Origin: Incurvaria masculella
Taxonomy: Eukaryota > Arthropoda > Insecta > Lepidoptera > Incurvariidae
Direction: 5' to 3'
Assembly (NCBI GenBank): GCA_946894095.1
Contig: OX335655.1
Location: 15,004,001 to 15,068,000 of the forward strand
Length of the DNA stretch: 64,000 nt
The position numbers and the translations under genes were made by a program. Shown in pieces: positions 3,215 to 59,700 of this stretch. Each line of letters opens with the position of its first letter. Within the stretch, counting starts at the first letter, position 1. The notes under the pieces were generated by a model that was given only the letters and a program-made list of their open reading frames with translations, searched no databases and was not told where the DNA came from.

Positions 3215-3464
3215 TGAAACAATTATAAACGGACTGCTCCCTGCGCTTCTTAGGAGCACCAACTGACTTCTCCTCATTTGCCCCGTCTCGCTCCCACTCG
3301 ATCATCGACCATCTGAGGGAGTGAGAGGAAAGAGACGCCAAGAAAAATGCACAAAAAGTGACAGCAGTGATGAGAGCCAATGAAACAAGTATTGTTTGTG
3401 TTTCGATTTGATTTTAATTTTGTCTTAATAAACAGTTTGATTGCGACCGAATACGTTTATTACA
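3215..3464 (+). repeat. 5' LTR of gypsy element
   Basis: 250 bp, starts TGAAACAATTATAA and ends TTTATTACA, identical to the LTR at 16307-16556. An AATAAA polyadenylation signal is at 3427-3432. Transcription would start and end within the LTR; the start site itself is not marked by a clear TATA box. Confidence 0.95.
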
Positions 3465-3466
3465 AG

Positions 3467-3477
3467 TGGCGCCCAAC
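3467..3477 (+). other. Primer-binding site (tRNA-Lys type)
   Basis: TGGCGCCCAAC lies two bases after the 5' LTR. It is complementary to the 3' end expected of a tRNA-Lys(CTT), the primer used by Drosophila gypsy-group elements. The tRNA assignment comes from family knowledge. Confidence 0.7.
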
Positions 3478-3564
3478 TAGTGGCCACGTCGTGAATCGAG
3501 TGCGCGTTAGTGAAAACTACGAACTTTGGCAGGAATCGTCAGGTTCCCTGGAGGTCCACCAAAA

Positions 3565-5915
3565 ATGCCTCCAAAGAAAGACAAAGACATTCCGCCTTCC
3601 GATCCCGACGGAGATGAAACCACGCGATCAAATCAAACGGACCTGGCCTATATCATCACGACTTTGCAACAATCACAACACGAATTCAACCTCCGCCTGT
3701 TGGAACAAGTAGCCGAGATGCGCGCTGCGTCTCCGGCCTTAGCCTCACCGACATCGGCGCTAGCGCCCGCGCCCGCAATCCTACCTCCGCCAGGCAACTT
3801 TGCTAGATGTCCTGCGCGCTATGACGGCGCAGAATCATCTAATGAACAATGCGGCGACGCTGTGGAAGCGTTCATCGATAGTGTTTCGGTGTACAAAGAG
3901 TGTGTGAACTGTTCTGACGAACATGCCCTTCGTGGACTGCCCATGTTATTAACGGGGCAAGCGGCAGTTTGGTGGCAAGGTGTGAAGAACTCTGTAAACT
4001 CATGGAGTGAAGCAATTGATAGACTTCGTGCGATGTATGGTGAACGTAAAAAGCCGTATAAACTTTTTCGAGAACTGTATTCCATGGAACAAGATCCCAC
4101 AATGAAAAGTGAGATATTTCTATGCCGCGTTCGATCTATTTTAACAAAGGTTCCTTATGAGTTAAGTGAAGAAATAAAAATTGACCTTATATATGGACTA
4201 TTAAACCGCAAAATACGTAAACAAGTACCTCGGGACAATATTAAATCATTCGACGAACTTATCAACAAGTGTAGGGAAGCGGAGGAGTCTATGGGTGAAC
4301 TTACACCATCTGCCCGAACAGATGACGTAACGAGTGCGCGCGCTTGCCGAGCTAGTGATGCGAAACACAAAGTTATATCAAGTGCTCCCGGACTCACTTC
4401 ATTTAAACCACCTAAGAACTCTGTTGACGCCTCAAGTGTTAGTGACGTTCTCGTTACGCATGGACGGTTGCGTTGCAATTATTGCAAAAAGTTCGGACAC
4501 ACAATGGAGGTTTGCCGTAATTTGGACAACAAATTGAAGAAAACTGAGAGTAGTGCAGGACGTTCCCTTAGTAATCAAGTGCCCAAGTCTGAAGTGCAGT
4601 GCTATGGCTGCGGTCAACCCGGAGTCATACGGTCTCGCTGCGAGAGGTGCAAGAATACACCTACAGCTGCACAGCAAGTTGAGTTCAACGCCGACGAGAT
4701 CGTGGAGGTCACAGACTTTTCTAAGCCAACTATTAAGATCAGTGTCAACGGTCATGCTGGTGTGGCTACTGTAGACACCGGAGCATCTCACAGCATCGCG
4801 AGTCCTGCCCTTTACTCCATTTTAAAAGACTGCGCTTCGTTCGAAGATTCAGTCATACACATGACGCTTGCTGACGGAACGACCACAGAGAGGAAGATCA
4901 TAAAAACTAAGATGGATGTCTCTCTCGAGGGCAGGAGAATCGAAACTATTTTCATGGTACTTCCTGACGCAGACACTACAACCTTGCTTGGAAGAGATTT
5001 TGTTACGGAAGCAGGTATGATTTTAAATCTGGCCCAACGAACCTGGAGCTTTTCCAATGCTCCAAACGTAATCTATGATTTCGTGGCCTCTTATAGCCTG
5101 CAGAACACAACGGAGTTATTCAAAACGAGTGTGCAAGATCTGAGCCTACGTGAAGATGAAGCCACCAAGCTCTCTTTGGAACAAAAAAACAGATTAAATG
5201 CACTCATTGAACGCCACGCTGATCGGTTTGCAAGTGCAGGTCCCCCGACAGAGTATGCCACTCATCGAATAGAGACAGATAATCATATTCCTGTTTCTTC
5301 GCCGCCGTATCGGCTTTCCCCAGGGCGCAAGGAAGCTCTAAATCATGAAATTGACAAATTACTGGCTGATGATATCATCGAGGAGTGCGAGTCGCCTTGG
5401 GCTTCAAATGTGGTCCTCGTTGCCAAGAAGGACTCATCATTTCGACTTTGCATAGATTATCGTAAGCTCAACGCTTTGACCCGACCAGATCGATATCCAT
5501 TACCCAGGATAGATGATATCTTGCATGCAGCTAAAACTTCAAATTTCATGTCTACTCTGGATTTAAGATCCGGGTATTGGCAGGTCAGTGTCGCTGAAGA
5601 AGACCGAGACAAGACAGCCTTCACGACTCCCTCAGGTACATACAGATTCAAGCGCATGCCGATGGGATTAAGGAATTCAGGTGCGACTTTCCAGAGACTG
5701 ATTGATCGGTTTAAGAGCAATCTCAAGGAAATCTCATTATTCCCTTACCTCGATGACATAATTGTACTATCAGATGATTTTGAGCAACATTTGAAGGATC
5801 TTGATAAAATATTTTTGCGATTGAGATTATACAATCTACGTGTGAACCGCGAGAAGTCCGTTTTCTCCCGAGATTCTGTAAAATTCCTTGGCCACGTGAT
5901 CGTGCCTGGTGGATT
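3565..5915 (+). CDS. Gag-pol polyprotein, 5' part (Gag, protease, reverse transcriptase), interrupted
   Basis: The first ATG of the long frame is at 3565 (AAAAATG); the frame is open upstream to about 3526 without an ATG. Residues 1-300 are Gag-like. A CCHC zinc knuckle has Cys304, Cys307, His312 and Cys317. A second knuckle-like motif (CYGCGQPG) has Val where His is expected. The retroviral-type aspartic protease active site DTGAS has its Asp at residue 404, followed by a LLGRDF motif. Reverse transcriptase follows, with the YLDD catalytic box at about residues 728-731 (5746-5757). At codon 784 the frame runs into the nested element and stops at 5956-5958. The downstream half resumes at 14254 in register. 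The protein would act in virus-like particles to copy element RNA; here it is broken after the RT palm. Confidence 0.92.
5913..5915. other. 3-bp target duplication of nested element (left)
   Basis: ATT before the element is repeated as ATT at 14251-14253. Removing the element and one copy leaves the gypsy reading frame in register, which fixes the insertion boundaries. Confidence 0.8.
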
Positions 5916-6496
5916 TAGTACGAGAGCGGACCGTAGTCAACCCTACGTCATCGAGTAACAACATGGGACCCATTTGTGGTTGTGCGGATTAGAATAGGCT
6001 TCCTAAAAATACTAGGTTGCCTGACCCAAACCTGGAACGTTTTGTGCAGTAGGTAATATTAAATCACTTTTTTGGTAGAATTTAACGTCATCGAGTAACA
6101 ACATGAGACCTAGCACAATCGGTAAAGGTCATCAAGAAAAGCTAAAAAAAAGTAGGTTGGCTCGTCCTACCCTGGCACGTTCTGAGGTTGGTCGGTTTTA
6201 AAATGTCGAAAAATAAAAAAAAATACGTCATCGAGTAACAAGATGACAATACCACCATTCGATAGTCCTATGAACATACTTCATAAAAAAATTAGGTTGG
6301 CTGCCCTCAGCCTGGCACGTTTCCTACGCGGCCATGTTGAACGTCGGATGCGCCCAGTTCTTATATTCATCAATTGTTAAATTACTATAATATAACAGTT
6401 TTGTGATATGTATATCTATAAACCGGTGATGTTTTTATTGATCTGAACTCACCTTGGATAGGTAAAACAAATGACAAAATGAAATATTTGTGATAT
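5916..6496 (+). repeat. Left terminal inverted repeat of nested element
   Basis: Contains ACGTCATCGAGTAACAA at about 5945, 6085 and 6225, exactly 140 bp apart. Each is followed about 75-100 bp later by a TAGGTTG(C/G)CT block and a CCTGG(A/C)ACGTT block. The 140-bp units are diverged tandem repeats, as expected for repeated transposase-binding sites. Confidence 0.85.
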
Positions 6497-6639
6497 ATTG
6501 AGAGTTTGGGTGCAATGGTTGCAAAAAAATTCATTTCAACAAATATTTTTCTTCTGTCGCGCAAGATACAACTAAATACATCCAATAAATTGTAAATCTC
6601 GCATTAGAGCAACTCAAAATATTTTTACCACGCAATAAG

Positions 6640-7440
6640 AAGTCTGTCACTTTTGAATCTGTTAGCTGTTCTGAGATTCAAAAAGTAACAGAGACCTTAA
6701 GTCCAAAGGACCGCAAGGTTTATGGAACATATCTACTAATCTGTTAAAGTCCATATGGGGCAGTATTATAGAACCTCTTAGAATTGTATTTAAGATGGCA
6801 CATTTCCAGACTTATTAAAAATTACTAGGGTAATACCATTGCTTAAAAAGGGATCTCATAATGATGTTGAAAATTATCGGCCTGTGTCCTTACATTCACA
6901 GTGTTATTAATTATAATCAATTCGGATTTCGTAAGTCTAGGTCAACAGGAGATGCCATTGCCTTGATGTTAATATCTATTTTAACTTCTCTACTTAAATC
7001 TATGAGCACCTACGGCATTTTCTGTGATGTATCAAAAGCTTTTGATTGTGTAGATCACAAAATACTTCCAGGAAAACTAGAACACTTATGGTGTTAGGGA
7101 AAATAAATGAGGTATTTGTAAATTATATATATTAAATAGACAACAAAATTGTGAAGTAAACGGTACTAAGTCTGATGTAGAATCAATCACTATGGGTATA
7201 CCGCAGGGTTCAGTTCTAAGACCGTGGTTTTATATGTTGTAATAAATTATATTTCAAGCTGCATCGCAACAGATAATGATATGATTTTATTTGCGGATGA
7301 CAAATCATCAATTTCAAAAAATCGTATATCAGAACTACCGGAGTCCTTTATACAAGCTATGAACTCACTTAAATTATGGTGTGAAGCCAATAACCTACTT
7401 TAAATGACAGTAAAACGAGTTTAATGCACTGGGGACCCAA
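6640..7440 (+). pseudogene. CR1/Jockey-like LINE reverse transcriptase remnant
   Basis: Translated pieces in shifting frames keep the order of non-LTR RT motifs: a VIPLLKKG / NYRPVSL block near 6830-6890, NQFGFRKSRST near 6915, a DVSKAFDCVDH block near 7025-7065, GIPQGSV near 7195, and a FADD motif near 7290. Many stops and small deletions separate them. 5' and 3' parts are missing. It is cargo of the nested element and not functional. Confidence 0.75.
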
Positions 7441-7734
7441 ATACGTAATGTGAATTGTGATGTATTAAATACAGCAAATGATCTATCTTCAGCTATAACT
7501 AAAGAAATAACGTTACTTGTGATACTTTTGGGGTTACCGTGGTCGTTAAATATATTTAAAAATTGTTATGGCTTTTCACGCGGCGGGAGGAGACATTCGC
7601 CGACGTATCGAGCTGATCGTTCAGCCTGTTGTCAATGAGGTGGTCCGCCACGTTCATACGCAGCAGACGACTGACAACTAGGCTCGCCGTGGTCGTAAGT
7701 CATAGGTGTGGGTCGAGGTGGTAGCGGAAATGCG

Positions 7735-8605
7735 GTGGTAGCGCTTCTACGTTCTTCCTAAAATTCACAAAGACGGGAACCCCCTTAGACCAATAGTCAG
7801 CCAGATAAATGCTCCTACCTACCTCCTCGCTACACATGTCGCCACAATATTTCAACCCCTGTCTGGCAAGACGTCGTCCTACGTTAAAGATTCGGCCCAT
7901 TTTGTGGAATTGTTGTCTACAGTGAAGTTGGCATGCATGGATCTATTAGTGAGCTTTGACGTCGAGTCGCTGAATACAGACGTACCAGTCCAAGAGTCCC
8001 TCGACATCATCAGAAACTTAGTCATCAGCAACGACATCGACACTGAGTGCGTCAAGCTCCTGCCATATTGTCTCACTACGACATACTTTCTGTGGCAAGG
8101 ACAATACTACATCCAGCGAGAAGGTGTAGCAATGGGATCACCAGTGACACCAGTGGTGGCAAACCTTTTCATGGAACCGCTGGAACACCGCACATTGCAA
8201 ACTTCACCTCTTAAGTCAATGTTTTGGGTACGGTACTTGGGTGACGTGATTTCAATCTGGTCACATGGTCGCCAATCACTAGACGCTTTCATCTCTCATC
8301 TTAATTAGGTTCACACAAATTTAAAATATACAGTAGATTGTGAGAAGGTAGGCACTTTGGCGTTCTTGGAAGTACTTGTTGCTCGACGATTGGATGGAAT
8401 CCTAAGCCACACAGTGTACCGTAAGCCGACACACACAAATCGTTGTCTACAAGCTACTTCGCATCATGCTCATTTTGGTGCATTTGTGTGGGTGCATTTG
8501 GAATCGGTCGCAAGAACTCAGAGCACAGCGGTTGTGTGACAAGGACCATATCTTCACCGAAATGGACCCTGTGCTTCTAGAACATGGGTACAATTTTCGC
8601 AATGT
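7735..8605 (+). pseudogene. Penelope-like element reverse transcriptase remnant
   Basis: A LPKIHKDGNPLRPIVS block (about 7757-7800) leads into SFDVESL and GVAMGSPV...ANLF motifs in the open frame 7904-8308. After a stop, a FLEVLVARR / VYRKPTHTNR block follows. This order is diagnostic of Penelope-like RTs. The catalytic box reads RYLGDV where family members have an Asp-Asp pair, so one catalytic Asp is lost. The frame is also interrupted, and no GIY-YIG endonuclease was seen. Confidence 0.75.
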
Positions 8606-9475
8606 CGGTCAGTCAGTCAGCGTGTTTGCGTCCACTGCTGGACATACGCGTCTCCAATCCTTTTCCAGTCCTCCCGGCCCTCAGCGGTACGGAACCACTG
8701 CTTTCCGCCGACGCACTTGTCTCATCTTCCCACCTGGCGAGTGGTCTTCCCACACTCCGTTTGCCTGTTCACGGCCGCCAGTGTAGGACACGGTAACTCC
8801 AACGGTCGTCGTCTCTTCGGCTGACGTGACCAGCCCACTGCTATTTGAGCTTAGCCACCCGGTGTCCAATATCGACTACTTTGGTACGTCGGCGGATTGC
8901 CTCTTTACGTACCATATCCCGTAGCGATATTCCCAGCATGGCTCGCTCCATTGCTCGCTGGGCAACTTTTAACCTTTGGACAACGGCGACCGTCAGAGTC
9001 CACGTTTCACACCCGTACGTCATGTCATAACCGGGAGGACGCACTGGTCATATGTTTGGGTCTTTAAATTTCTACGGAAGGTCAGACCTCAGAGCGAATT
9101 TAAGCTTTCCGAAGGCAGCCCAACCCAGATGAATCCGTCGCTCAACCTCCAAAGACAGTCCTTGTATACGAAGCCGCAGGATTCGACCGAGATATACGTA
9201 CTCTTCAACCTGTTCGATCACTTCTACGTCGATAACGATTTGTCCTCCCGTCATACCCTCAGTCGCCATGACCATGGTTTTATCCCGGTTCATCTTCAGA
9301 CCTACCTTTAAAGGTCTTCCAGCATGGTTTAAAGCTAAACTCGGGAATTTTACAGAAGAACAATGTGATCGGCGTAGCGAAGATGACTGAGGAAAATATT
9401 CACTAACGTTGATACCCATGTTTTCCCATTCAAGCGTCTTGAACACATATTCCGATGCGTTTGTGAAGAGCTTGG
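8605..9475 (-). pseudogene. RTE-type LINE remnant, 3' half of RT region (minus strand)
   Basis: Read on the minus strand, frames contain VGLKMNRDKT, EYVYLGRI, YGCETWTL, and AQRAMERAMLGISLRD followed by RRRTKVVDI. This is the RT C-terminal region typical of RTE-clade elements. The same sequence occurs in plus orientation at 11.9-12.4 kb. The copy breaks at 9475, and its upstream part resumes at 10650-10860 after another LINE. Confidence 0.75.
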
Positions 9476-10649
9476 GTTAGAAAATGTGGGTGAGAAAGTA
9501 ACGTAAATATAAGATATACAAACAGAACAAATGGATTATTATTATCGATAACTCTGTATCACGATTATTTGAAACCGATTACGGAGTACCTCAAGGCTCA
9601 ATCATGGCACCATTGCTGTTTATTATTTTTATTAATGACATTGCAAAAGACACTATGCTAGTACTTCTCGCGAAAACCATAGTAATTTACGCTGACGACG
9701 CAAATGTAATTGTTACTGATAAAAGTCTTGAAACACTCCTTACAAAAACAACAAAAATAATTGAGGAGTTGGGTAAATGGTTCGCAGCAAATGGGTTAAT
9801 GTTAAATAGTGCTAAAACACACTGTGTACATTTTAAGATGAAAAATATTAAACATATAACAATAGAAGTGAATTATGAGATGTTTATCGAATATAACGGT
9901 GAAGTCATAACGTTTGCAACATCTACTATATTCTTAGGCTTCACGTTGGATCAAAAGTTACGATGGGACAAACACATTCAACATGTTTGTGATAAATTAA
10001 CAAAAGCATGTTATTGCCTCAGAACCCTGTCTAAATGCTGTGACTTGGATACCCTGAAGAGTGCCTTCTTCGGTTATTTATACTCTGTACCTCTGGCATT
10101 GAGTTCTGGGGTTCTTCAGCGGTTTCAGTATTTAGACTACAAAAGAAAGCAATTCGGATAATTACACACTCTAAATGGGACGCACTTGTTTGCACGCCTT
10201 TGTTTAAAAACCTAAAATTGCATACTATGTATGATGTGTACTATGTATGATGTGACGTACAAATAACTATTTTTTATGTGAGAAATTATCCGGAATCATA
10301 TAATAATTTTAAACACGGATATTCGACGAGAAATAAAAATGTAATCCAGCAAGCTGCACACTCAACATAGAAATTTGAGAAGGGGGTCCACTTCAATAGT
10401 ATTAATATGTATAATAAGCTACCAAGAGACTTGCGAGAAGAAACTAACATAAGATTTAAAAAGAAGTTAGGTACATGGTTGCTTGACCAAACTTTCTACG
10501 ATTTAAGTTATTTTAATATTATTGTGTAAAACGACGAATTCACATGATTGGTATCAATATTATAATCTGTTATGCAAATTCTTAATATTGTAATGTAATC
10601 ACTGCGAATAAAATATTTCGATTTGATATTTTTGATTTTATTTGATTTG
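9476..10649 (+). pseudogene. Truncated LINE inserted into the RTE copy
   Basis: A VPQGSIMAPLLF...YADD block and a 185-codon frame (9604-10161) show a CR1/Jockey-like RT C-terminal half. A (GATTT)-rich 3' tail ends at about 10649. The minus-strand RTE sequence stops at 9475 and picks up next to this tail, so the LINE landed inside the RTE copy. 5'-truncated; stops follow 10161. Confidence 0.75.
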
Positions 10650-10965
10650 AGATCACATCCCCCTGCCTAACGCCTTTACCAATAGGGATGGGTTGGGTAT
10701 TTTAATGGAGCCTCACAGTCATCGTCACGGACCGATACAGAGTACCTCGATGTAGCGGTGGTCGATTCTGCACCTCAGGAGGAAGTTTTCGACGGCCCAT
10801 TTTTCAACTGAGTCGAACGCCTTTTCGTAGTCCACGAAGGCTACAAAGAGCGGCTACTCCTCCTTCTAGCTAGCTTAGCCACCCGGTGTCCAATATCGAC
10901 TACTTTGGTACGTCGGCGGATTGCCTCGTTACGCACCATATCCAGTAGCGATATTCACCAAGGGA
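10650..10965 (-). pseudogene. RTE remnant, 5' piece of the split minus-strand copy plus an extra 3' fragment
   Basis: 10650-10860 is the reverse complement of the RT segment at about 11590-11810 on the plus strand (same NSV-KWAVEN-like block). 10872-10960 then repeats the 3' fragment also found at 8850-8945, so the copy has been rearranged. Confidence 0.6.
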
Positions 10966-10989
10966 ACATGAAGTTGGTTGAGCGCGTTA

Positions 10990-12470
10990 TAGAGGAAAAT
11001 CGAGACAGTAAAGTGTTTTCCCGTGCCTTCTCTACCGGCGCTAACTAAATTTCAAAACTCGAGCGAGCGGATGGGGTTGTCACTGCAATAAAGACGGATA
11101 TACTTGAGGCGGTGGTAAAAAAATATGACGAATTGTACTCCGCAGCAATGCATGCTCCGAGCCCAAGCAAACCACTCGACTCTGATAGGTGTGCCCCGCT
11201 CACTAGATACTACACCGAGGATCTGCCGGAGTTTAGTGTCTATGAGATAAAGGCTGTTTTGAAAGGACTAAAATAACACAAGGCTCCAGATGAGGACGGG
11301 ATAACGATGGAACTGCTAAAGTCTGGCGGGAGACCATCAGGAACTGCAAACACTGTGCAATGCAGTTCTCAAAAAAATAAGGCGAAGTTGAAGAACTATC
11401 GACCTATCTCACTTCTAAGCGACGTATACAAGGTCTTTTCATGAGTCATCACGAGTTGGCTGACACAGAGGCTGGATCAGTACCAGCCTCGTGAGCAAGC
11501 TGGGTTCAGGAAAAGATACGGCATAATGGATCACATATTTACTGTGAGACAAGTGGTGCAGAAGTGCGAGGAGTACAACAAGCCGCTCTTTGTAGCCTTC
11601 CGCTTCTTTTCTAGTCCTTTACGAGAAGGCGTTCAACTCAGTTGAAAAATGGGCTGTCGAAAACTCCCTCCTGAGGTGTAGAATCGACCACCGCTACATC
11701 GAGGTACTCCGAAATCTGTATCGGTCCGCGACGATGACTGTGAGGCTTCATTAAAATACCCAACCCATCCCTCTTGCTAAAGGCGTTAGGCAGGGGGATG
11801 TGATCTCACCCAAGCTCTTCACGAGCGCATCGGAATATGTGTTCAAGACGCTTGAATGGGACAACATGGGTATCAACGTTAATTAATATTTTCCTCAGTC
11901 ATCTTCGCTTCGCCGATCACATTGTTCTTCTGTCAAATTCCCGAGTTCAGCTTCAAACAATGCTGGAAGACCTTTATAAAGATAAGTAGTAGAAAGATAG
12001 GTAGTTCTGAAGATGAACCGGGATAAAATCAAGGTCATGGCGACTGAGGGTATGACGGGAGGACAAATTGTTATCTCGGTCAAATCCTGCGGCTTGGTAT
12101 ACAAAGACTGTCTTTGGAGGTTGAGCGACGGATTCAACTGGGTTGGGCTGCCTTCGGAAAGCTTAAATTCGCTCTGAGGTCTGACCTTTCGCAAAATTTA
12201 AAGACCCGAACATATGACCAGTGCGTCTTCCCGGTTATGAGTGGGCTGGTCACGTCAGCCGACGAGATGACGACCGTTAGAGTAACCGTGTCCTACACTG
12301 GCGGCCGTGGACAGGCAAACGGAGTATGGGAAGACCACCCACCAGGTGGAAAGACGGCATCAAGTGCGTCGGGGAAAGCAGTGGGTCCGTACCGCTGAGG
12401 GCCGGTAGGACTGGAGAAGGATTGGAGAGGCGTATGTCCCGCAGTGGTCGCAAACACGCTGACGGATTGA
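10990..12470 (+). pseudogene. RTE-type LINE remnant (plus strand)
   Basis: Frame fragments include YTEDLPEFSVYEIKAVLKGLK, HKAPDEDGI, LKNYRPISLLSDVYKVFS, an EQAGFRK block, and further on the MNRDK and ERRIQLGWAAFGKLKF blocks. This is the domain order of RTE reverse transcriptase. Several stops and frameshifts occur. Together with the minus-strand copy it forms a long, imperfect inverted duplication inside the nested element. Confidence 0.75.
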
Positions 12471-12737
12471 CTGACTGTTCTCAAACCATTGTACTCTTAT
12501 TTTTTTGTAGGTGGTAGCATTTAAAGGTTTAATATTATGTCGTTTTTTTTTTTGCTGTAAGAATAATAAGGTTTTGTAATTTGTCTCTTTGTTTACAGGT
12601 CACTATAGTAGTTCATGACAAAAATAATAGTATAAATTCTGGATCTAACACTAGACTCATCAGAAGGACTAAATCGTACACAGGTTTTAAAATGTTTTCT
12701 TGTTGCCACTGGAGTGTGCATCGCTTTAAGGTCCTTT

Positions 12738-13493
12738 CTTCAACCCCTGTCAGCCCATGCCTACGACATTAGAGGCGCACGCTTTACATTCGGCGACGGA
12801 GCTCTTCATTACATAATTCAAATTTGATTGAATGTAAACCTAATGTAATGAAGAATTTTAATAGTCATAATAAAATAAATCGCCACAAAGTTACTATTCT
12901 TTAATTCACAGGACTTTAGGTTAAATATTTATGGTTATTTCCATCCTTTAAACATTTAAATGTATATGTTTTCTATAACTAATACATAAATATGTTTACA
13001 GAGCTTTTCAGGTATTATTTAAACTATACCTACGACTTAAGAGCTGTTAATTTAAAATTCCGCTTTGGTTTAGACACATTGCAACTTTGTTACGATAAAA
13101 TAAAAGAGATACGTAAATAAAGAAAAGAGAGTGACGCCAAAGCTTACTAAACTTCCTTAATATGTGAGTGACGATGTGGACATGTACTTTTGTATAGACC
13201 CGGCAACGTTGCGTATATATTTATAGAAAACATATACATTGAAATGTTTAAATAATGGAAATATACTCTAGAATATTTACCCTAAATTCATGTGAATTAA
13301 AGAATAGTAACTTTGAGATACTTCACTTATGGGTTTAAGTTTTGTGGCGATTTATTTTATTATGACTATTAAAAAATCTTCATTACGTTATGTTTACATT
13401 CAATCTGATTACAATTTTGTAATAACGAGGGCCGTGGCAGAATTTAAAGCGTGCGCCTCTAATGCCGTAGGCATGGGCTGACTGGAGTTGCGA
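12738..13493. mobile_element. Inverted-repeat element inside the nested element
   Basis: Arms of about 250 bp are imperfect inverted copies. The left starts near CAGCCCATGCCTACG; the right ends in its reverse complement near 13485. A spacer of about 180 bp separates them. No coding capacity. Likely a MITE that inserted into the larger element. Confidence 0.65.
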
Positions 13494-13670
13494 TTCCCTA
13501 CGTTGAATGATCCATACGGTAGATTCCGAAAGCATATGTATATGAAACTTCCGGTTTTTACTCTTCAAGTATGCGGAACTATGTGCATCATAACCTAAAG
13601 TTAACTTGAGTTAAACTTAGTTAATAATTAGATACGACAATGCCTTAATATCACGTAATCAATCAATACC

Positions 13671-14250
13671 TATATCACAAATATTTCATTTTGTTTTTTT
13701 TTAACCTATTCAAGATGAGTTCTGATCACTAAAAACATCACTGTTTATAGATAGACATATCACAATACGGTTATATTATATTAATTTAACAATTGATGAA
13801 TATAAGAACTGGGCGCATCCGACGTTCAACATGGCCGCGTAGGAAACGTGCCAGGCTGAGGGCAGCCAACCTAATTTTTTTATGAAGTATGTTCATAGGA
13901 CTATCGAATGGTGGTATTGTCATCTTGTTACTCGATGACGTATTTTTTTTTATTTTTTGACATTTTAAAACCGGCCAACCTCAGAACGTGCCAGGGTAGG
14001 ACGAGCCAACCTACTTTTTTTTAGCATTTCTTGATGACCTTTACCGATTGTGCTAGGTCTCATGTTGTTACTCGATGACGTTAAATTCTACCAAAAAAGT
14101 GATTTAATATTACCTACTGCACAAAACGTTCCAGGTTTGGGTCAGGCAACCTAGTATTTTTAGGAAGCCTATTCTAATCCGCACAACCACAAATGGGTCC
14201 CATGTTGTTACTCGATGACGTAGGGTTGACGACGGTCCGCTCTCGTACTA
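13671..14250 (-). repeat. Right terminal inverted repeat of nested element
   Basis: Reverse complement of 5916-6496. Its three motif copies lie at 14201-14222, 14061-14082 and 13921-13942, keeping the same 140-bp spacing as the left side. Confidence 0.85.
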
Positions 14251-14253
14251 ATT

Positions 14254-16267
14254 CATAGTAGATCCAGATAAGACCTCGGCAATTGCTAACTTACCCCCAC
14301 CAAAGAATATCAAAGACGTGAAGAGCTTCCTGCAGACTACAAGCTGGTTTCGACGTTTCATTCCAGAATATGCAGAGAGGGCCCGTCCATTGATCCAGAT
14401 GATGAAGAAAAATGCCACGTTCGAGTGGAAGGAACTTCAGCAAAAAGCCTTCGAGGATTTGAAGACAGCATTAGTGACGGCGCCCATATTGAGGCAGGCC
14501 GATGAGACCAAGCCGTACGTTCTAAGGACTGACGCGAGTAAATATTGTCTTGGAGCGGTTTTGCTCCAGGGGGAGGGCCCCGACGAAAGGGCCGTCGAGT
14601 ACGCCAGCCGTCAGCTGTCACCTGCTGAAATGAATTATTCAACAACAGAGCGGGAGGCCCTGGCTGTTGTTTGGGCAGTTTCCAAATTTAGAGGTTACAT
14701 AGAAGGTGCTGAGACAACAGTACAGTCAGATCACCAACCCTTAAAATGGTTGATGAGTGTCAAATCGCCAAGTGGAAGACTAGCGAGATGGACTTTACTA
14801 CTGCAAGAATTTAATTTACGAGTGGAATACACCCCTGGTAAAATGAATGTTGTAGCCGATACGCTATCTCGTCCGCCGCATCAAGAGGAGCAAGACCAAG
14901 TTTTTGACCTTTGTACCGCCACAGTGGACCTACCTTCCCGTAACCCCAGTGAGGTCCGTGAGAATCAACTGAAGGACCCTGAAATATCCAAGATTGTGAA
15001 AGACTTAGAGTCTGTGCACGACTCATTTCGTGCCAGAGCGTGGACTGACCGTGGGTACATAATGTCCGATGGCATATTGTACAGATATGCACCAGAGAAT
15101 GAAGATGGTGAAGACCCCCAGCTTGTGGTACCACAGCATGAACGTGACAAGGTGCTGAAAGATTTACACGATGCTCCCACAGCGGGACATTATGGCATAG
15201 AGCGTACCATGCGTCGTATAAGTCTAAGATATTATTGGCCCGGAATGCGAAATTTCGTCACAGAATATGTAAAGAATTGTGTGCCGTGTCAGAGGTACAA
15301 GGCGGACACACGCCGACCGGCTGGTCTGGTTCAAACACCTGCTTCGTCTCGTCGGTTCGAAACCCTCTCCGTAGACCTGTTTGGCCCTTTACCAGAGACG
15401 GAAACAGGAAATAAATGGATCCTAATAATTGAAGACACCTGTACCCATTGGGTAGAGTTATTTGCTCTCCAGAAGGCTACTGCGACTGAGTGCGCTAAGA
15501 AATTGGTTGAAGAGATTTTTATGAGGTATGGTACCCCTCGACGCATTATAAGTGATAATGGCGTACAATTTATAAGCGACGTAATGCAACAGGTTTGTCA
15601 CGTGATGGGCATCGAACAACTGCTGACTGCTTTATATCATCCCGAAGCAAATCCGGTGGAGCGAAAAAATCGCGATTTAAAGCCTCAGTTGGCTATTCTG
15701 GTTGGAACGGACCACAACACATGGGATGCCCACCTGTCATCAATAAGATTCGCTATGAATACGGCAGTTACAAGCAGCACAGGCTATTCCCCTGCATATT
15801 TAAATTTTGGACGTGAAATGAGATCCCCTCAAGATGCACGGAATGACCTCAGAACCATTGTTGACAATGACAACTTTGTCCCTTCCATAACCCCTTATTT
15901 AAAGAAGATGACCTCTGTTCTAATAGACGCCCGTGATACCCACGAGAAGGAGCAACTTCGCCAGAAAAGTTATACTGACCAGCATAGACGTCCTGCCCCA
16001 GAATACAAGGTTGGTGATAGAGTCTTGGTGAAGACGCAAGGCATAAACAACGTCGATAAAGGACAAATCTCTAAGTTTATCCCAAGACGAGATGGCCCAT
16101 ATAAGATAAAAGAAGTCCTTTCATCTGTTAATTACTCATTAGAGGACTCTGCTGGTGAACCCCTTGGGAAGTATCATGTGTCCCAATTGACACCTTTTCT
16201 GGGAGAAGATCAAGAGTTGCCGATCCGTCCCAAGAAGCGCCGAGGTAGACCAAAAAAGAATAACTAA
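14254..16267 (+). CDS. Gag-pol polyprotein, 3' part (RT thumb, RNase H, integrase)
   Basis: Continues the gypsy frame directly after the ATT duplication, in register with the 5' half. An RNase H domain has TDAS (Asp codon 14531), a TEREALAVVWA block and QSDHQPL. Integrase follows: an HHCC zinc finger (His codons about 15169 and 15187, Cys pair in NCVPCQ about 15280), then the catalytic Asp codons at 15374 and 15554 and Glu at 15659. This gives D-X59-D-X34-E, with the insect-typical HPEANPVER context. A C-terminal GPY-type segment (RRDGPYKI) and a basic RRGRPKK tail, like an AT-hook, end the protein. No chromodomain seen. The frame has no internal stop, consistent with a young element, but it is cut off from its start codon by the insertion. 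Confidence 0.92.
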
Positions 16268-16296
16268 CCCAGGCGCGTGGACGCTAAGCCTAGGTT

Positions 16297-16306
16297 AGAG
16301 GGGGAG
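16297..16306 (+). other. Polypurine tract
   Basis: AGAGGGGGAG directly abuts the 3' LTR. It is the expected primer site for plus-strand synthesis in LTR retroelements. Confidence 0.8.
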
Positions 16307-16556
16307 TGAAACAATTATAAACGGACTGCTCCCTGCGCTTCTTAGGAGCACCAACTGACTTCTCCTCATTTGCCCCGTCTCGCTCCCACTCGATCATCGA
16401 CCATCTGAGGGAGTGAGAGGAAAGAGACGCCAAGAAAAATGCACAAAAAGTGACAGCAGTGATGAGAGCCAATGAAACAAGTATTGTTTGTGTTTCGATT
16501 TGATTTTAATTTTGTCTTAATAAACAGTTTGATTGCGACCGAATACGTTTATTACA
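16307..16556 (+). repeat. 3' LTR of gypsy element
   Basis: Identical to 3215-3464 over all 250 bp by eye. The CTTC target duplication follows at 16557-16560. Confidence 0.95.
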
Positions 16557-29260: not shown

Positions 29261-29293
29261 ATAATATGCATATTATAATACACGCGAAAAATA

Positions 29294-30577
29294 TTGGTTG
29301 GGGAAAAAGTTTCTTCGCATTTTTTAAGAAAATTCAAAACATTTTTTAATATGGTTTATTTACATTTAACTAAAGTATGTAGGTACCATTTTGTTCGATA
29401 ACTTTTTGCCATCTTGTAGGTAGGGACATGATCCCATTGCTATAGAAATATTGGGACTTCTGATCAATATACCGCGACAAGTGGTTTTGGCAGTCCTCTC
29501 GTGATGTTAACCTGACACTGCCTAAAGAATTCTGAAGAGACCTAAACAGGTGGAAATCTGAAGGTGCAAGGTCAGGACTATACGGCGGATGCATTAACAC
29601 CTCCCAGCCAAACTCTCTTAGTTTTTGCTGAGTGGCTAAAGATGTGTGAGGTCTAGCGTTATCATGATGAAAAACCACACCCCTTCTGTTGATTAATTCC
29701 GGCCGCTTTCTCTCAACTTCTTGCTTTAATCTCATCAGTTGTTCGCAGTAGAGTTCAGAATCGATGGTCCTGCCTGGTGGTAACAGCTCATAATGAATAA
29801 TGCCCTTCCAATCCCACCACACACACAGCATCACCTTGTTGCGAGTTAACCCGGGTTTCGCCACAGTCTGTGAAGCTTGATCGGCCTTTGACCACGACCT
29901 TTTTCGCACGTTCTTGTCGTACGTGATCCACTTTTCATCACCAGTTATCAGCTTCTTCAAAAATGGTTCGGTTTCATTACGTCGTAATAAAGAATCACAA
30001 ATGAGTACACGCTTCATTAGGTTTCTTTCAGTGAGCTCGTGAGGTACCCAAATATCGAGCTTTTTTGTGTACCCAGTTTTTTTCAAATGCGCCAAAACTG
30101 TTTTGTGGTCAATTCCTAGTTCTTCAGCTACGTCGTAACTACTGATATGCCGATCTTGCTCCACTTTTTCAAAAATGGCATCCATTTTATCCGTAATAGG
30201 GCGACCAGAGCGACGTGCATCTTTGACATCAAAATTTCCGGATTGAAAACGCTTAAACCAAATTTGTGCTACTCTCACAGACACTGCACTAGGTCCATAA
30301 ACATCGCAAATTTTTTTCGCGGCTTGCGTTGCATTTTTACCTTTTTTGTAGTAAAATTTTAAAATGTATCGAATTTCTTCATTAGATTCACTCATTGTGA
30401 CAGTACGAAAAACAAATGAGAATCACACATTTTCCTAATTTGAATTTGGAATTATGTTCTTTAAAATTTAAACTTTCAATGATACCAAAACCAGCCAGAT
30501 ACAAATAGTATAGCCAAAGAGATTTTATTACAAGTTCATACATACTATAATGCGAAAAGACTTTTTCCCCGACCTAT
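29294..30577 (-). mobile_element. Mariner transposon, intact copy
   Basis: Terminal inverted repeats of about 28 bp (GGTTGGGGAAAAAGTTTC on the left; GACTTTTTCCCCGACC on the right) enclose a 1.28-kb unit flanked by TA dinucleotides. Size, ends and TA target are those of Tc1/mariner. The right flank reads TATATA, so the exact outer base is uncertain by two. Confidence 0.9.
29370..30395 (-). CDS. Mariner transposase, full length
   Basis: 341 codons from ATG to stop without interruption, a normal length for mariner. The N-terminal half holds two helix-turn-helix regions (about residues 1-110) for inverted-repeat binding, and [10 protein letters not shown] at 116-125 links to the catalytic core. 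The core has TGDEKW (Asp153), HHDNARPH (Asp245) and SPDLAPSD (Asp280), giving the mariner-specific D,D34D triad. All signature residues are present, so the protein could be active: it would cut and paste elements with matching ends at TA sites. It is nearly identical to the broken copy at 54.8-55.9 kb, so the family moved recently. I do not assign a subfamily firmly; irritans or cecropia type is likely. Confidence 0.93.
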   Translation of the reverse strand: MSESNEEIRYILKFYYKKGKNATQAAKKICDVYGPSAVSVRVAQIWFKRFQSGNFDVKDARRSGRPITDKMDAIFEKVEQDRHISSYDVAEELGIDHKTVLAHLKKTGYTKKLDIWVPHELTERNLMKRVLICDSLLRRNETEPFLKKLITGDEKWITYDKNVRKRSWSKADQASQTVAKPGLTRNKVMLCVWWDWKGIIHYELLPPGRTIDSELYCEQLMRLKQEVERKRPELINRRGVVFHHDNARPHTSLATQQKLREFGWEVLMHPPYSPDLAPSDFHLFRSLQNSLGSVRLTSREDCQNHLSRYIDQKSQYFYSNGIMSLPTRWQKVIEQNGTYIL

Positions 30578-31119
30578 TATATACTTTTGGACCTTATGCT
30601 TTTTGGACTTTATGAAGGCGATCCATATATCCTATTAAATATTTTAAAAGAAAGACGTCAACACAAACATATTATTTATATGTTTTCACCAAACCGTTTT
30701 ATCGTTGAACAACAATAAAAGATTAATTCTGGAAGAGATAATTTTAATGTGGATAAATCTTAAGCGTTTTGAACAATTTAAGCATGGCACAAAATGTGGA
30801 AATAAGTTCGAGAAAAGCCGATTAATATATCAAAGGGACTGCTAAAGCCACTTCCAAACAAGGCTACTTAGCAAGATTCGGGTCATTGGGCACATTGCCA
30901 AATCGGGAAGCGGCACGAATGGCCGATATTAAGCCGAAGTTGCTCAAAAACAAGCCTTCAGAAAGCGTTCGATAACACTCGACCGCACCGGATACCCTCT
31001 CCAAGCAGCGTTCTATCGCCTAATTGGCACCCAGAAAGTGCAGTGTCGCACTTCGGCGCAGATGCGTGACACACTGATCCAGATAACCGAACTTCACATT
31101 TTGATTTTAATGAGACTTT
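30578..31119. other. No recognised feature
   Basis: AT-rich flank followed by mixed sequence. No domain or repeat match found. Confidence 0.35.
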
Positions 31120-34816: not shown

Positions 34817-34991
34817 CTAAGGCTGAGATAAATAGTCGTAACAGAAACTAAGACTAACGAAAAGTTGTACTTTGTGAGGTCACTTTGACACATTTTGTAT
34901 GGTCGAAATCTCAAAGTAATGCAAAGTGACGTCACAAAGTACTACTTTTCGTTAGTTTTAGTTTCTGTTACGACTATTTATCTCAGCCTAA
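34817..34991. mobile_element. Palindromic MITE, family E, single copy
   Basis: A near-perfect 175-bp palindrome. GGCTGAGATAAATAGTCG at the left and CGACTATTTATCTCAGCC at the right, with arms of about 75 bp. The same unit is amplified at 58.3-59.6 kb. Confidence 0.85.
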
Positions 34992-35261
34992 GATTGCCTG
35001 TTTTCATTTGAAAACCTATTGAAAATGGGTTTGTTTATTTTCTATTAATATTAATACAATATCTCGTTGTGCGTACACAAACGCAACGCGTAACCAAATA
35101 CATACGTTGACTCGTCCGATATGAATTAACCCCGGCGATGTAACTCGAGAGCCAACGCAACCGGAGAGACGAACCGAACTAGAAAATAAACAGATCGAAT
35201 GATAGGGGGTGCCCATTTTACCGACAATCGCTCGCACTTGAGCGGAACCCACGACTTCAGA

Positions 35262-46395: not shown

Positions 46396-46640
46396 TTTTT
46401 GAGGGTTCCGTACCCAAAGGGTGCCAACGGAACCGTATTAATAAGCCTCCGCTGTCCGTCCGTCCGACCGACTGTCACAGGGCTGTATCTCATGAACCGT
46501 AACAGGTAGGCAGCTGAAATTTTCAGTGTATTTATTTTGCCGCTATAAAAACAAATAGGTTAAATAAAAATAAAGTGTAATTTTTGTAAGATGGTACGGA
46601 ACCCTTCGTGTGCGAGTCCGACTCGCACTTGGGCGGTTTT
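46396..46640 (+). repeat. Repeat family A copy
   Basis: GAGGGTTCCGTACCCAAAGG start to CGCACTTGGGCGGTTTTG end, with a shortened middle. Confidence 0.8.
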
Positions 46641-53794: not shown

Positions 53795-56700
53795 GTGCGT
53801 ACCTGCCTGTGTTGGTGATGTGTTTTCTTTGTAGTACGTGGGGTGGTGCATGCTGCGTTGCCTAGAATTCCTAGAATATCCGGGAGAGGATGGCGCTGCA
53901 TCGATCCGCCCGGAACGCGTGGGTGTAGCGAACAAAGACATTTTCCAGAATACCTCCTGATTACGAAACGCCGGATAAAGCCGATATCGAAAAAGCCGAA
54001 AACTGCAATAATGAAAGCATTAGAGGCAATACGTTTTCCAGATAAGACATATGTACATGTTGCCATTCAGTTGTTTATTGACCTAAAAGTCAGCTGATTT
54101 CCGTCATTACAATTTACAATCTCTTTGTTCTTAAACAAAAAATAAATATTATAGCAAAAGAAATGTTTGGAAGACTTAGGTTTGCTTAGATTATACAAAA
54201 TGGATATTTTTAGACCTACACAAATATATATATAAACTGTATATGTACACAAACATACGTACATTCTAAAATACCTACTTTTCATCATGGAGGTGAAGTA
54301 GTTCTTGACCTCTATGCATTCCATGCATTGATGTTTGATTTCATAATTATTTCATAAGGAGGCCTTTATTCTCATTTCATGTCCTGTTCCATCGATGAAT
54401 ACTAATAATTGACTCTGAGAGGTCTAATGAATGGCTCCCATGTTTCATTAATTTGGTACAGTCTGGAAACACTAAATTCCTTACAATAACTTAACTATGC
54501 CCACCATATTATAATAAATTCAACACAGATATGGTCATTCTATTGACGATTTATACAGCTTCATTATGGCTGCATCTAATGTCATTGTTAGCTTGTTAAT
54601 CTTTCACTCAATGCCGTCACTCTGATTTTTTTTTCTATCACCTCTATCTCTCTATCAAGCGTACTAACTCGTTTCACACGTTCCTCAAATCAAATATCAG
54701 TTCCCAAAACTGAAACTCGATTCGCTTACTTTCTTGGCCCGTACATATTAGGTTGGGGAAAAAGTTTCTTCGCATTTTTTAAGAAAATTCAAAACATTTT
54801 TTAATATGGTTTATTTAAATTTAACTAAAGTATGTAGGTACCATTTTGTTCGATAACTTTTTGCCATCTTGTAGGTAGGGACATGATCCCATTGCTATAG
54901 AAATATTGGGACTTCTGATCAATATACCGCGACAAGTGGTTTTGGCAGTCCTCTCGTGATGTTAACCTGACACTGCCTAAAGAATTCTGAAGAGACCTAA
55001 ACAGGTGGAAATCTGAAGGTGCAAGGTCAGGACTATACGGCGGATGCATTAACACCTCCCAGCCAAACTCTCTTAGTTTTTGCTGAGTGGCTAAAGATGT
55101 GTGAGGTCTAGCGTTATCATGATGAAAAACCACACCCCTTCTGTTGATTAATTCCGGCCGCTTTCTCTCAACTTCTTGCTTTAATCTCATCACTTGTTCG
55201 CAGTAGAGTTCAGAATCGATGGTCCTGCCTGGTGGTAACAGCTCATAATGAATAATGCCCTTCCAATCCCACCACACACACAGCATCACCTTGTTGCGAG
55301 TTAACCCGGGTTTCGCCACAGTCTGTGAAGCTTGACCGGCCTTTGACTACGACTTTTTTCGCACGTTCTTGTCGTACGTGATCTACTTTTCATCACCAGT
55401 TATCAGCTTCTTCAAAAATGGTTCGGTTTCATTACGTCGTAATAAAGAATCACAAATGAGTACACGGTTCATTAGGTTTCTTTCAGTGAGCTCGTGAGGT
55501 ACCCAAATATCGAGCTTTTTTGTGTACCCAGTTTTTTTCAAATGCGCCAAAACTGTTTTGTGGTCAATTCCTAGTTCTTCAGCTACGTCGTAACTACTGA
55601 TATGCCGATCTTGCTCCACTTTTTCAAAAATGGCATCCATTTTATCCGTAATAGGGCGACCAGAGCGACGTGCATCTTTGACATCAAAATTTCCGGATTG
55701 AAAACGCTGAAACCAAATTTGTGCTACTCTCACAGACACTGCACTAGGTCCATAAACATCGCAAATTTTTTTCGCGGCTTGCGTTGCATTTTTACCTTTT
55801 TTGTAGTAAAATTTTAAAATGTATCGAATTTCTTCATTAGATTCACTCATTTTGACAGTACGAAAAACAAATGAGAATCACACATTTTCCTAATTTGAAT
55901 TTGGAATTATGTTCTTTAAAATTTAAACTTTCAATGATACCAAAACCAGCCAGATACAAATAGTATAGCCAAAGAGATTTTATTACAAGTTCATACATAC
56001 TATAATGCGAAAAGACTTTTCCCCCGACCTATTATATAACAGAATATTACTTTACAACAATTTTACTAGGACTAACAAGCACGATTTTAAACAGCAGATA
56101 AATGGTTGGCTACTAGCACAAAACTATGAACAGACAGAAAATCTACTCTGTATAGTTAGCTAGTAACGACTATAACGCCAACTATTTTCTACAAGTCCCC
56201 TCCCTTCCCCCACATTACACCACACCGAGGGGTTAGTCACTCGAGCAAAAAGTGTACACCAGATTCCCAGTAGTCAAGATTTCCTTGGGATTTCTAGATT
56301 CCTAAAGATTTCCAAAGACTACCAAAGATAATTGGAGATTCCTAAAGATTTCCAAAGACTCCCAAAGATTCTTGGAGATTCCTAAAGATTTCCAAAGACT
56401 ACCAATGATTCTTGGAGATTCCTAAAGATTTCCAAAGACTCCCAAAGATTCTTGGAGATTCCTAAAGATTTCTAAAGACTCCCAAAGATTCTTGGAGATT
56501 CCTAAAGATTTCCAAAGACTACCAAAGATTCTTGGAGATTCCTAAAGATTTCCAAAGACTCCCAAAGATTCTTAAAGACTCCCAAAGATTTTTAGGGAAT
56601 TACAAATATACTGGGATTTTCTAACATTTCTGAGGACTACCAAAGATTACCTGGATTTTTTAAGGACTACCAACACATTTTTGGTACATTCCAAAGATTT

Positions 56701-59700
56701 CGGGATTTCTAAAGATTCTTAGAGATTCTTAGTGACCACCAACGATTCATAGAGACTTATAATTCAATAGAATATGTATGGTTAAAATCTTTTCAATCTC
56801 GTTTGTCATCTGACTGAATTGCTGACAGCCGGCTGGCCAGCTGGCTGTCCTTTGACTTGACGGCGCACAAAATACCTACAAAAATAAAATTATTGAATCA
56901 AAATCACTGACTAAAAGTCTCCCACCCAATACACAGTAGGTACACGCGGGGTGCGCGTTGCGCGCAGCACGTGTCCGTGACGTCATCGCGGACAGGCGGG
57001 CGGCGCGGCCGCCCGGCGGGGGGCGGCGCGGGCGCGGCGTCCGCGCGAGGCGGCAACGGCGCGGGCGCGGGAGGCGGCAACGGCGCGGCGGGCGGGGCGC
57101 GGGGCGCGATATTCGTTTTGGACATATTCACCCAGGCGGAATCCGGTTAAATTAGATCCCATATTATCTCAGCGATCTTTAGATCAGCGCTGATTTTTTC
57201 TTTTCCTGAGGCATTATACAATACCATTTTTGAAGCCACAGTACATATTTCACATGCTAAATTTCAAGGTGAGGTACTCCGCTCTTTCGAAATCTCTTCA
57301 AATCTCAGCCATCATTAGGTCAGGGTTGATTATTTTTTTGCCTGGGTCGTTATGAAAGGCTATATTTGAAACCTTAGCAAATATTTCACGTAGAAAACTT
57401 CGCGATAAGGTGGGTACTCTTCTTTTTCGAAATCCCTTGCAGTCGTATTCACAGTGAACCTGTAAAAACTTGGTACGAGATTAGCACCGGACTAATCATA
57501 CAAAAACCGGTTTACTTCGACCTTAATACGCGTAGTAAAGTTAGTCCGCCCACTTTATAATACTTTTTAATACTGCTGTTTGTATCTAAAACAATTTTAG
57601 TAACAAAAACAAGATTTCCAGATTCATCGGACACCTTCCGAAGATTGTCTGATATTACAAAGATTTGCAAAAATTCTCAGATTCCTTAGGATTACTCGGG
57701 ATTACATAAGATTTCCGGATTCTTCGGACTCCCGTCAGATTTATCGGACTCCGCCTAAGATTACACGAGATTTTCATGATTTTTTTAGGATTCCCAATGA
57801 TTTCCTTAGGATTCTCAGATTCTTTAGGATTACTCGGGATTACATAAGATTTCCGAGATTCTCCGGACTCCCACCAGATTCCTCAGACTCCCACCAGATT
57901 TCTCGGACTCCCACCTAAGTTTCTCAGATTCTTTAGGATTACTCGGGATTACATAAGATTTCCGAGATTCTCCGGACTCCCACCAGATTCCTCGGACTCC
58001 CACCTAAGATTCTTGAGATTCCTAAACGATTGTACACCAGATTCCCTGAGTGAGTGACCCCTCGCACCACACCACACATCCTATCACCTTACACACATAT
58101 CCCAACATCACACACAATACCTATACACATACACTAACACAAAATCAAAGTGTTTCATAACATCCAAATCACAATTTCGGATCTATGTTCATGTATATGT
58201 TTATTATTTTTTAATGCGCAACCTCTTTCCCTTGATACAGTCAAGCACTAGTTTGGGAAAGAGGGAACATAACTGTTTTTCTACTGTACCTTTATAAAAT
58301 AAAATTTGATTTGATTTGATTGTAAATGTATAGAGGTTAGATAAACAGTCGTAACAAAAACTGACTAACGAAAAGTAGTACCTACTTTGTGAAGTCACTT
58401 TGATACATTCTCTATGGACGAAATATCAAAGTAATGCAAAGTGACAGCAGAAAGTACTAGATAAATAGTCTTAACAAGGCTGAGATAAATAGTCGTAACA
58501 GAAACTAAGACCAACGAAAAGTAGTACTTTGTGACGTCACTGGACATTACTTTAAGATTTCATCCATACAAAATGTGACAAAGAGACGTTTCTGTTAGAA
58601 CTTTTTATCTCAGCCTAAGATTAATGAAAAGTAGTATTTTGTGAGATCACTTTGACACATTTTGTATGAACGAAATCTCAAAGTAATGCAAAGTGAAGTC
58701 ACAAAGCACTACTTTTCGTTCGTCTTGGCTGAGATAATTAGTTGTAACAAAAACTAAGGCTGAGATAAATAGACGTAACAGAAACTAAAGCTAACGAAGA
58801 GTCGTGCTTTCTGACGTTACTTTGACACATTTTATATGGACGAACTCTCAAAGTAATGCAAATTGACGTCACAAAGTGGTACTTTCCGTTAGTCTTAGTT
58901 TATGTTACGACTATTTATCTTAGCCTAAGACTGAGATAAATAGTCGCAACCCAGACTAAGACTAATGAAAAGTAGCACTTTGTGACGTCACTTTGACACA
59001 TTTTGAGATTTAGGCAGAGATAAATAGTTGTAACAAAATCTAAGGCTAACAAAAAGTATCACTTTGTGATGTCACTTTGACACATTTTGAGATTTAGGCA
59101 GAGATAAATAGTTGTAACAAAAACTAAGGCTAACGAAAAGTAGCACTTTGTGACGTCACTTTGACACATTTTGAGATTTAGGCAGAGATAAATGGTTGTA
59201 ACAAAAACTAAGGCTAACGAAAAGTAGCACTTTGTGACGTCACTTTGAAACGTTATGAGATTTAGGCAGAGATAAATAGTTGTAAAAAAACCAAGACTAA
59301 CGAAAAGTAGCACTTTGTGACGTCACTTTGACACATTTTGAGATTTAGGCAGATATAAATAGTTGTAATAAAAACTAAGGCTAACGAAAAGTAGCACTTT
59401 GTGATGTCACTTTGACACATTTTGAGATTTAGGTAGAGATAAATAGTTGTAACAAAAACTAAGGCTAAGGAAAAGTACCACTTTGTGACGTCACTTTGAC
59501 ACGTTTTATATGGACGAAATCTCAAAGTAATGCAAATTGACGTAACGAATTACTTCTCTTTGTTAGTATTAGTTTCTGTTACGACTATTTATCTCAGCTT
59601 CAGTGTAGAAAAGAAATACCTAACTAAACTGCCACCCTGTGTGACGGTGCAGGCGACGTCTTGCCTATGCTTCGCGTGCGGCGCACCCGGCCCGCGGCTG

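Follow-up and report, generated by a model that had tools for sequence, protein, structure and literature searches.

A probable high-copy family of large non-autonomous cut-and-paste transposons filled with dead retroelements in Incurvaria masculella

The 64,000-nucleotide (nt) stretch of the Incurvaria masculella genome considered here (GenBank assembly GCA_946894095.1, contig OX335655.1, positions 15,004,001 to 15,068,000 of the forward strand; hereafter the window), which sits on contig C15 of the 552-Mb assembly of 31 contigs, raises the question of what kind of element split a gypsy retrotransposon with an insert in whose interior a Pfam scan found no transposase, and of what moves such an element. 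The insert is a non-autonomous DNA transposon: it possesses inverted ends and a target-site duplication, lacks a transposase of its own and has a relative with the same ends. It is very probably one copy of a high-copy, recently amplified family that moves by cut-and-paste, is served in trans by a transposase encoded elsewhere in the genome and arose by the route outlined below. The locus is delimited as follows:

3215..16556, + strand: host gypsy retrotransposon, pol split by the insert; long terminal repeats (LTRs) at 3215-3464 and 16307-16556
5913..5915, unstranded: left target-site duplication, ATT
5916..14250, unstranded: non-autonomous DNA transposon of 8,335 bp, with exact inverted ends, a 3-bp ATT duplication and a near-twin, L017, on contig C3
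14251..14253, unstranded: right target-site duplication, ATT

A first-pass annotation, made from the letters alone, had claimed exact boundaries, ATT duplications and a gypsy reading frame in register on both sides, and all three hold. An end alignment within the window places both boundaries exactly, with TAGTACGAGAGCGGACC at both ends of the insert, inverted relative to each other. In an alignment to the reverse transcriptase of Ty3, the left part of the gypsy pol ends at Ty3 residue 264 and the right part starts at 275; once the insert and one ATT are removed, the 10 residues between these points correspond one for one in gypsy and Ty3, so that the frame continues in register across the junction. 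Open codons number 800 and 671 in the two gypsy parts that were scanned. A TA duplication would break this frame and was rejected for the window copy. The gypsy is flanked by its own CTTC duplication, and its LTRs are indeed identical, across 250 nt, an identity that only restricts their divergence to less than about 1.2% (95%). Judging from the gypsy frame and its LTRs, the best supported order of events is one in which the window copy would have jumped into the gypsy as a single episode in the history of a larger family.

That larger family is apparent in the genome-wide distribution of the ends. The exact outer 17-bp end occurs 266 times in forward and 266 times in reverse orientation, against 0 for a reversed-pattern control, and in a search with the 485-bp left arm all 40 scored candidates, out of 564, match at 99-100%. 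The absence of other copies, which the first-pass annotation had named as fatal to its view of a recently mobile, large and non-autonomous element, is itself contradicted by these ends, and that view is supported by them and by the near-identical full copies described below. Of the 532 ends, 100 were listed (C1 to part of C3), and a script that searched 99 of these for partners yielded 47 pairs with lengths from 6,048 to 11,241 bp. Five ends had no partner; one of them, on C2, belongs to a copy (L036) with an inexact other end. All 47 pairs are thus longer than 6 kb, and several lengths recur among them: 8950 (9 pairs), 6956 (4), 8310 (3) and 8318 (3). If the listed pairs are typical, the 532 ends would represent about 260 elements covering about 2 Mb.

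Perfect 3-bp duplications flank 17 of the 19 copies that are two-ended within their stretch among the 20 fetched first, and 23 of 25 two-ended copies overall (those fetched, the window copy, L037-L039 and two autonomous-type relatives). Their sequences vary, including ATT, TTG, TTT, ACC, TAT, GTC, TAA, TTA and others. The dead interior is present in 20/20 fetched copies, with parts missing in L025 and L030, and is common to all 23 non-autonomous copies read besides the window's (the 20 fetched and L037-L039). Sixteen copies of 8,310 bp differ from each other by a mean of 1.875 bases, 10 of the 120 pairs being identical; with a butterfly mutation rate of 2.9e-9, the spread of this subfamily would date very roughly to some 40,000 generations, in a sample biased towards the window's arm. 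The near-twin L017 differs from the window copy at 7 of 8,335 positions and has its own TTA duplication, and L029 and L030 are about equally far from the window subfamily and the main one. The family reading draws on these features, namely shared exact ends, varied 3-bp duplications, a shared dead interior and near-identical copies on many contigs, and on two 11.24-kb relatives with the same ends, described below.

The same dead core recurs in the one copy read for each of the lengths 6956, 7762 and 8950. The 8,950-bp representative, L037, has in addition about 2,042 bp with a 639-amino-acid (aa) open frame (L037:3687-5603) containing a reverse transcriptase domain (RVT_1, E 7e-29). Because no other length is as frequent as 8950 in the 47 pairs, we infer that an element carrying this insertion of about 2 kb, a long interspersed nuclear element (LINE), went on multiplying; with such a copy in the commonest length class, size seems to have been no bar to amplification.

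The ends themselves are elaborate. The repeats of about 580 bp described in the first-pass annotation are present, with similarity extending to about 585 nt, and their repeated blocks are arranged as follows:

5916..6500, + strand: left terminal inverted repeat; identity to the right arm about 99% over the outer ~474 nt and lower further in
5945..5965, + strand: left block A1 (ACGTCATCGAGTAACAACATG)
6013..6041, + strand: left block B1 (TAGGTTGsCT-N8-CCTGGmACGTT)
6085..6105, + strand: left block A2
6153..6181, + strand: left block B2
6225..6245, + strand: left block A3
6293..6321, + strand: left block B3
13667..14250, - strand: right terminal inverted repeat
13845..13873, - strand: right block B3
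13921..13941, - strand: right block A3
13985..14013, - strand: right block B2
14061..14081, - strand: right block A2
14125..14153, - strand: right block B1
14201..14221, - strand: right block A1

Between the arms, 465 of the 470 outermost positions agree, and the likeness weakens past 474 nt. Mismatches amount to 4/295 in the outer spacers and 11/108, plus gaps, in the inner part (Fisher p = 0.00017); given this poorer agreement of the inner arm, the outer portion looks as if it had been homogenised. Each arm consists of a 29-nt end followed by three modules of exactly 140 bp, and each module contains a block A (ACGTCATCGAGTAACAA[C/G]ATG) and a block B, which starts 68 bp after the start of A and has the consensus TAGGTTGsCT-N8-CCTGGmACGTT. 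The modules agree at 20-21 of 21 positions within block A and at 28-31 positions of a 39-nt stretch around B, and are at chance level outside the blocks (20-25 of 80 positions, 26% expected). The probability that four spacers would all keep their length is about 3e-4 at the mildest indel rate assumed and lower at the others. Spacers that are randomised in sequence but preserved exactly in length suggest that the spacing is under selection. The layout, with A at 30/170/310 and B at 98/238/378, is found in 48 of the 49 arms that were read, including three of the autonomous type, when up to 2 mismatches are allowed in A and 3 in B; the remaining arm is off by one base. We consider the A and B blocks to be putative transposase-binding sites. 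A kinship of the outermost 29 bp with block B was rejected, as 83 to 322 of 1,000 shuffles were equally good in the better orientation.

Motif scans of viral contigs gave 0 matches in 4 of 4 scans (the last with a host-repeat motif), and the block-A 17-mer occurs in eight stretches of prokaryote contigs, below chance by our own estimate, with arm matches there of at most 24 nt. In a literature search on the end letters, the 11-mer TAGTACGAGAG alone occurs, in 7 papers, longer end and block-A words being absent. The end TAGTACGAGAG...GACCG at 5916-5933 has what we take to be a resemblance to the sarcin-ricin loop of large-subunit rRNA, probably by chance.

The interior falls into two kinds of sequence:

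6518..12740, unstranded: foreign dead cargo (non-LTR, Penelope-like reverse transcriptase, inverted RTE-like pair and some unidentified sequence; RVT_1 matches only)
12741..13218, + strand: inverted match to nt 751-1219 of the autonomous-type copy on C3 (80.1%), forming a palindrome at 12741-13490
13222..13666, - strand: subterminal part colinear with the 5' end of the same copy (89.7% over 1,033 columns including the arm)

A six-frame scan of the interior (E up to 0.1) gave RVT_1 matches only, all on the + strand; scanning the fragments singly (E up to 1) added one more RVT_1 match above the cut-off, while those below it were nearly all to unrelated models. The clade names of the cargo (non-LTR, Penelope-like, RTE-like) are our presumptive assignments. 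The first-pass description of a mosaic of long-dead retroelements stands as to content; the mosaic is, however, shared by 23 other copies rather than peculiar to this one, and 12741-14250, which matches the autonomous 5' end, is element sequence and not cargo. The first 987 nt of the C3 autonomous-type copy are colinear with window positions 14250-13222, no palindrome is found in the first 1.2 kb of that copy and no foreign cargo within the first 10.7 kb compared. The favoured explanation of the window palindrome is an inverted duplication, derived from the 5' subterminal sequence of the autonomous element, that would have arisen with the derivative. A compound of two complete smaller copies was rejected, the interior being free of any arm match or outer-arm 14-mer.

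A candidate for the autonomous relative that the first-pass annotation suggested seeking is present in two 11.24-kb copies with the same ends, C3:25165858-25177098 and C16:755308-766549, one of which has an intact frame; their role as a source of transposase is our inference. The ends are exact in both and the duplications are TTT (C3) and TTG (C16). The 11,241-bp C3 pair encloses an interior different from that of the non-autonomous copies, with long open frames, and the C16 copy, found by protein search, has a single uninterrupted frame of 1,463 aa. The two copies are identical over 4,454 nt except for one substitution and a length difference of a single base, the latter located at the break in the C3 frame. 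The arms of the C3 copy are 93.5% identical to each other (618 columns), 96.5% (600 nt) and 97.6% (537 nt) to the window left arm, and 89.7% (longer stretch) and 92.9% to the right arm. With 69 of 82 candidates scored, no third near-100% place for the protein was found.

The last ~600 residues of this protein are common to other long frames in the genome, at 37-39% identity on C6 and C12 and at 24-25% in eight 1,533-aa frames on C1, C4 (two), C18, C19, C20 and C26 (two). The latter have equal or nearly equal scores and may perhaps belong to a second recently active XPG-like transposon family. The C6 relative (C6:13954646-13956418) has a 1,579-aa open frame with 38% identity to the autonomous protein, and the TAGTACG end, at up to 4 mismatches, is absent from the 4.8 kb fetched around it. 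Across three of these families 85 columns are invariant, a subset of them acidic (D-G, F-D, H-E-E-x-D, D-x-D and G-C-D, in order), an order that we take to be that of the XPG/FEN1 nucleases. We predict that the 1,463-aa frame encodes the transposase of the family.

In the mechanism that we propose, the C16-type protein would bind the three-fold A/B arrays in both arms, pair the ends, cut the element out and reinsert it at a target cut with a stagger of 3 bp; it would serve every copy in trans and move any DNA between the arms. As to origin, an autonomous Academ-like ancestor may have lost its coding interior, its 5' subterminal part being duplicated in inverted orientation as the derivative arose, and about 6.2 kb of mostly retroelement debris would have filled the vacated space, or built up in it, before the burst. 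The defective derivative and its variants, including the one with the 2-kb LINE insertion, would then have multiplied to become the bulk of the family.

Several observations weigh against this reading. At the level of the copies, the first 20 to be fetched were those that best matched the arm of the window copy, which biases their likeness upward; the window copy and L017 are 98.2-98.3% like the main subfamily and form a smaller one; L025 has no second end within its stretch; and the expectation of 3-bp duplications in all copies fails for 2 of 25, the duplication of L022 being mismatched and the outer end of L036 damaged. The check for an empty gypsy site came out negative, with 0 matches elsewhere in the genome at up to 2 mismatches. 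With regard to the protein, the C3 frame is broken, and the C16 copy was read at its two ends and over 755308-761300 (the 5' arm partly), 761301-766379 being unread. Pfam and NCBIfam models gave only unrelated below-cut-off matches to the protein pieces scanned, and no DDE triad was located. A PDB search with one sequence returned Exonuclease 1 as its sole two matches at non-significant E values of 1.6 and 1.7; a profile of four sequences ranked two unrelated proteins ahead of it, a Cmr5 protein (0.17) and a beta-glucosidase (0.41), and placed it third (0.88), all three likewise non-significant. The likeness to XPG nucleases is thus one of motifs.

Academ transposases have an XPG-like domain and generate target duplications of 3-4 bp. 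The duplications of 3 bp in 23/25 two-ended copies agree with this, the XPG-like region in the relative's protein may do so at motif level, and we favour, with reservations, filing the family under Academ, although the copies read here are, in contrast, mostly large and non-autonomous. The best-surviving alternative is a so far undescribed transposase superfamily with an XPG-like domain. The failure of the scanned protein pieces to match any library model speaks for it, but 3-bp duplications combined with an XPG-like domain are just the features that we associate with Academ, and we regard it as possible though clearly the less probable of the two. The first-pass statement that the termini fit no nameable superfamily hence survives in that Academ membership is unproven, and gives way in that a relative with the same ends encodes XPG-like motifs.

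Academ is among the superfamilies listed in Repbase, where non-autonomous elements are classified according to how long the duplication is and to the first 11 bases of the end (PMC4455052). CACTA/EnSpm and PIF/Harbinger elements also have 3-bp duplications in plants, and those of the CACTA type may be longer than 10 kb and contain host sequence (PMC10741241); by these plant criteria, CACTA/EnSpm was rejected on ends that read TAGTACG instead of CACTA/CACTG and inverted repeats of ~600 bp, and PIF/Harbinger on duplications that vary rather than being TAA/TTA only. Polinton/Maverick elements, which have long terminal inverted repeats (TIRs) and 6-bp duplications (PMC8969392), were excluded by duplications of 3 bp, and Tc1/mariner by the broken gypsy frame under a TA reading and by 3-bp duplications that vary between copies. 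The Tc1-mariner elements Bari1 and Bari3 have long TIRs with three direct repeats (PMC4120734) and thereby parallel the three repeated putative binding sites per arm, whereas the present family has two different alternating blocks, an exact 140-bp spacing and a 3-bp duplication instead of TA. A limited literature search on long-TIR elements with 3-bp duplications gave no title on this element.

Ds-type derivatives are defective elements moved in trans. Gene-carrying MULEs and CACTAs are likewise known, as Pack-MULE and Pack-CACTA (PMC10741241). Our family resembles all of these in holding foreign DNA between functional ends and in the predicted movement of defective copies in trans; it differs in its multi-kb mosaic of dead retroelements, which predates the amplification of the copies read.

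Under a second alternative, the 11.2-kb copies would be passengers too: the large frame in them would be a gene with an accessory role, or a captured one, and an unrelated element elsewhere would supply the real transposase. It would account for the lack of a recognised transposase domain in the pieces scanned and for the disproportion between two near-100% protein copies (69 of 82 candidates scored) and 266 + 266 ends. Yet these copies share ends, block layout and 3-bp duplications with the rest, and relatives with long frames occur in the genome (1,579 aa at 38%, eight of 1,533 aa at 25%), as would be expected of transposases; we consider this scenario improbable.

Less probable still is that the element already lay inside the source gypsy and was carried along by retrotransposition instead of jumping into the gypsy copy. 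The LTR identity dates the gypsy integration alone, and an uninterrupted gypsy copy with the site was not found (up to 2 mismatches), both of which suit this scenario, but it would seem to require copying, in trans, of a 13-kb RNA whose pol is disrupted. The reading of the family as DNA transposons is independent of this question. Finally, assembly error or satellite-like spread, to which the extreme likeness of the copies might point, is next to impossible in view of the differing flanks and varied 3-bp duplications at the sites read, on many contigs.

The success of non-autonomous elements is usually ascribed to small size. Here, very large coding-dead elements make up most of the copies read in a recently amplified family of roughly 260, and an intact-frame relative was found in one copy only. 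Foreign-filler non-autonomous elements and three-site long TIRs, the latter as in Bari (PMC4120734), are already known; what is unusual is how large the elements are, that their cargo is entirely dead, how many copies there are, that small derivatives are lacking among those examined and that the dual-site array keeps strictly to 140 bp. The candidate enzyme, ends and substrate together offer a natural system for the effects of length and multi-site ends on transposition, which also bears on how dead retroelements hitch-hike and multiply. We raise, as a speculation with the odds against it, that an XPG-type transposase acting on 3 x 140-bp dual-site ends could be nearly insensitive to length or even need long spacing; if so, the successful parasites of this system would be 6-9 kb elements padded with dead foreign DNA, and not small miniature inverted-repeat transposable elements (MITEs).

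Rfam (gathering scores) and tRNA scans of the window gave 0 matches. Two mariner copies, at about 29290-30590 and 54745-56040, share 99.15% identity across 1,294 nt; a transposase frame of 350 aa is open in the first, and the second is split into two frames. Tandem arrays with units of 40 nt and 84 nt lie at 56296-56591 and 58933-59507, respectively, and sequences related to the 84-nt unit occur at 34817-34996. Dispersed repeats that contain GTCCGTCCGTCC and CGAGTCCGACTCGCACTTGG are found at 46530-46640 and at many other sites in the window, and are presumably of a kind present in moths and butterflies.

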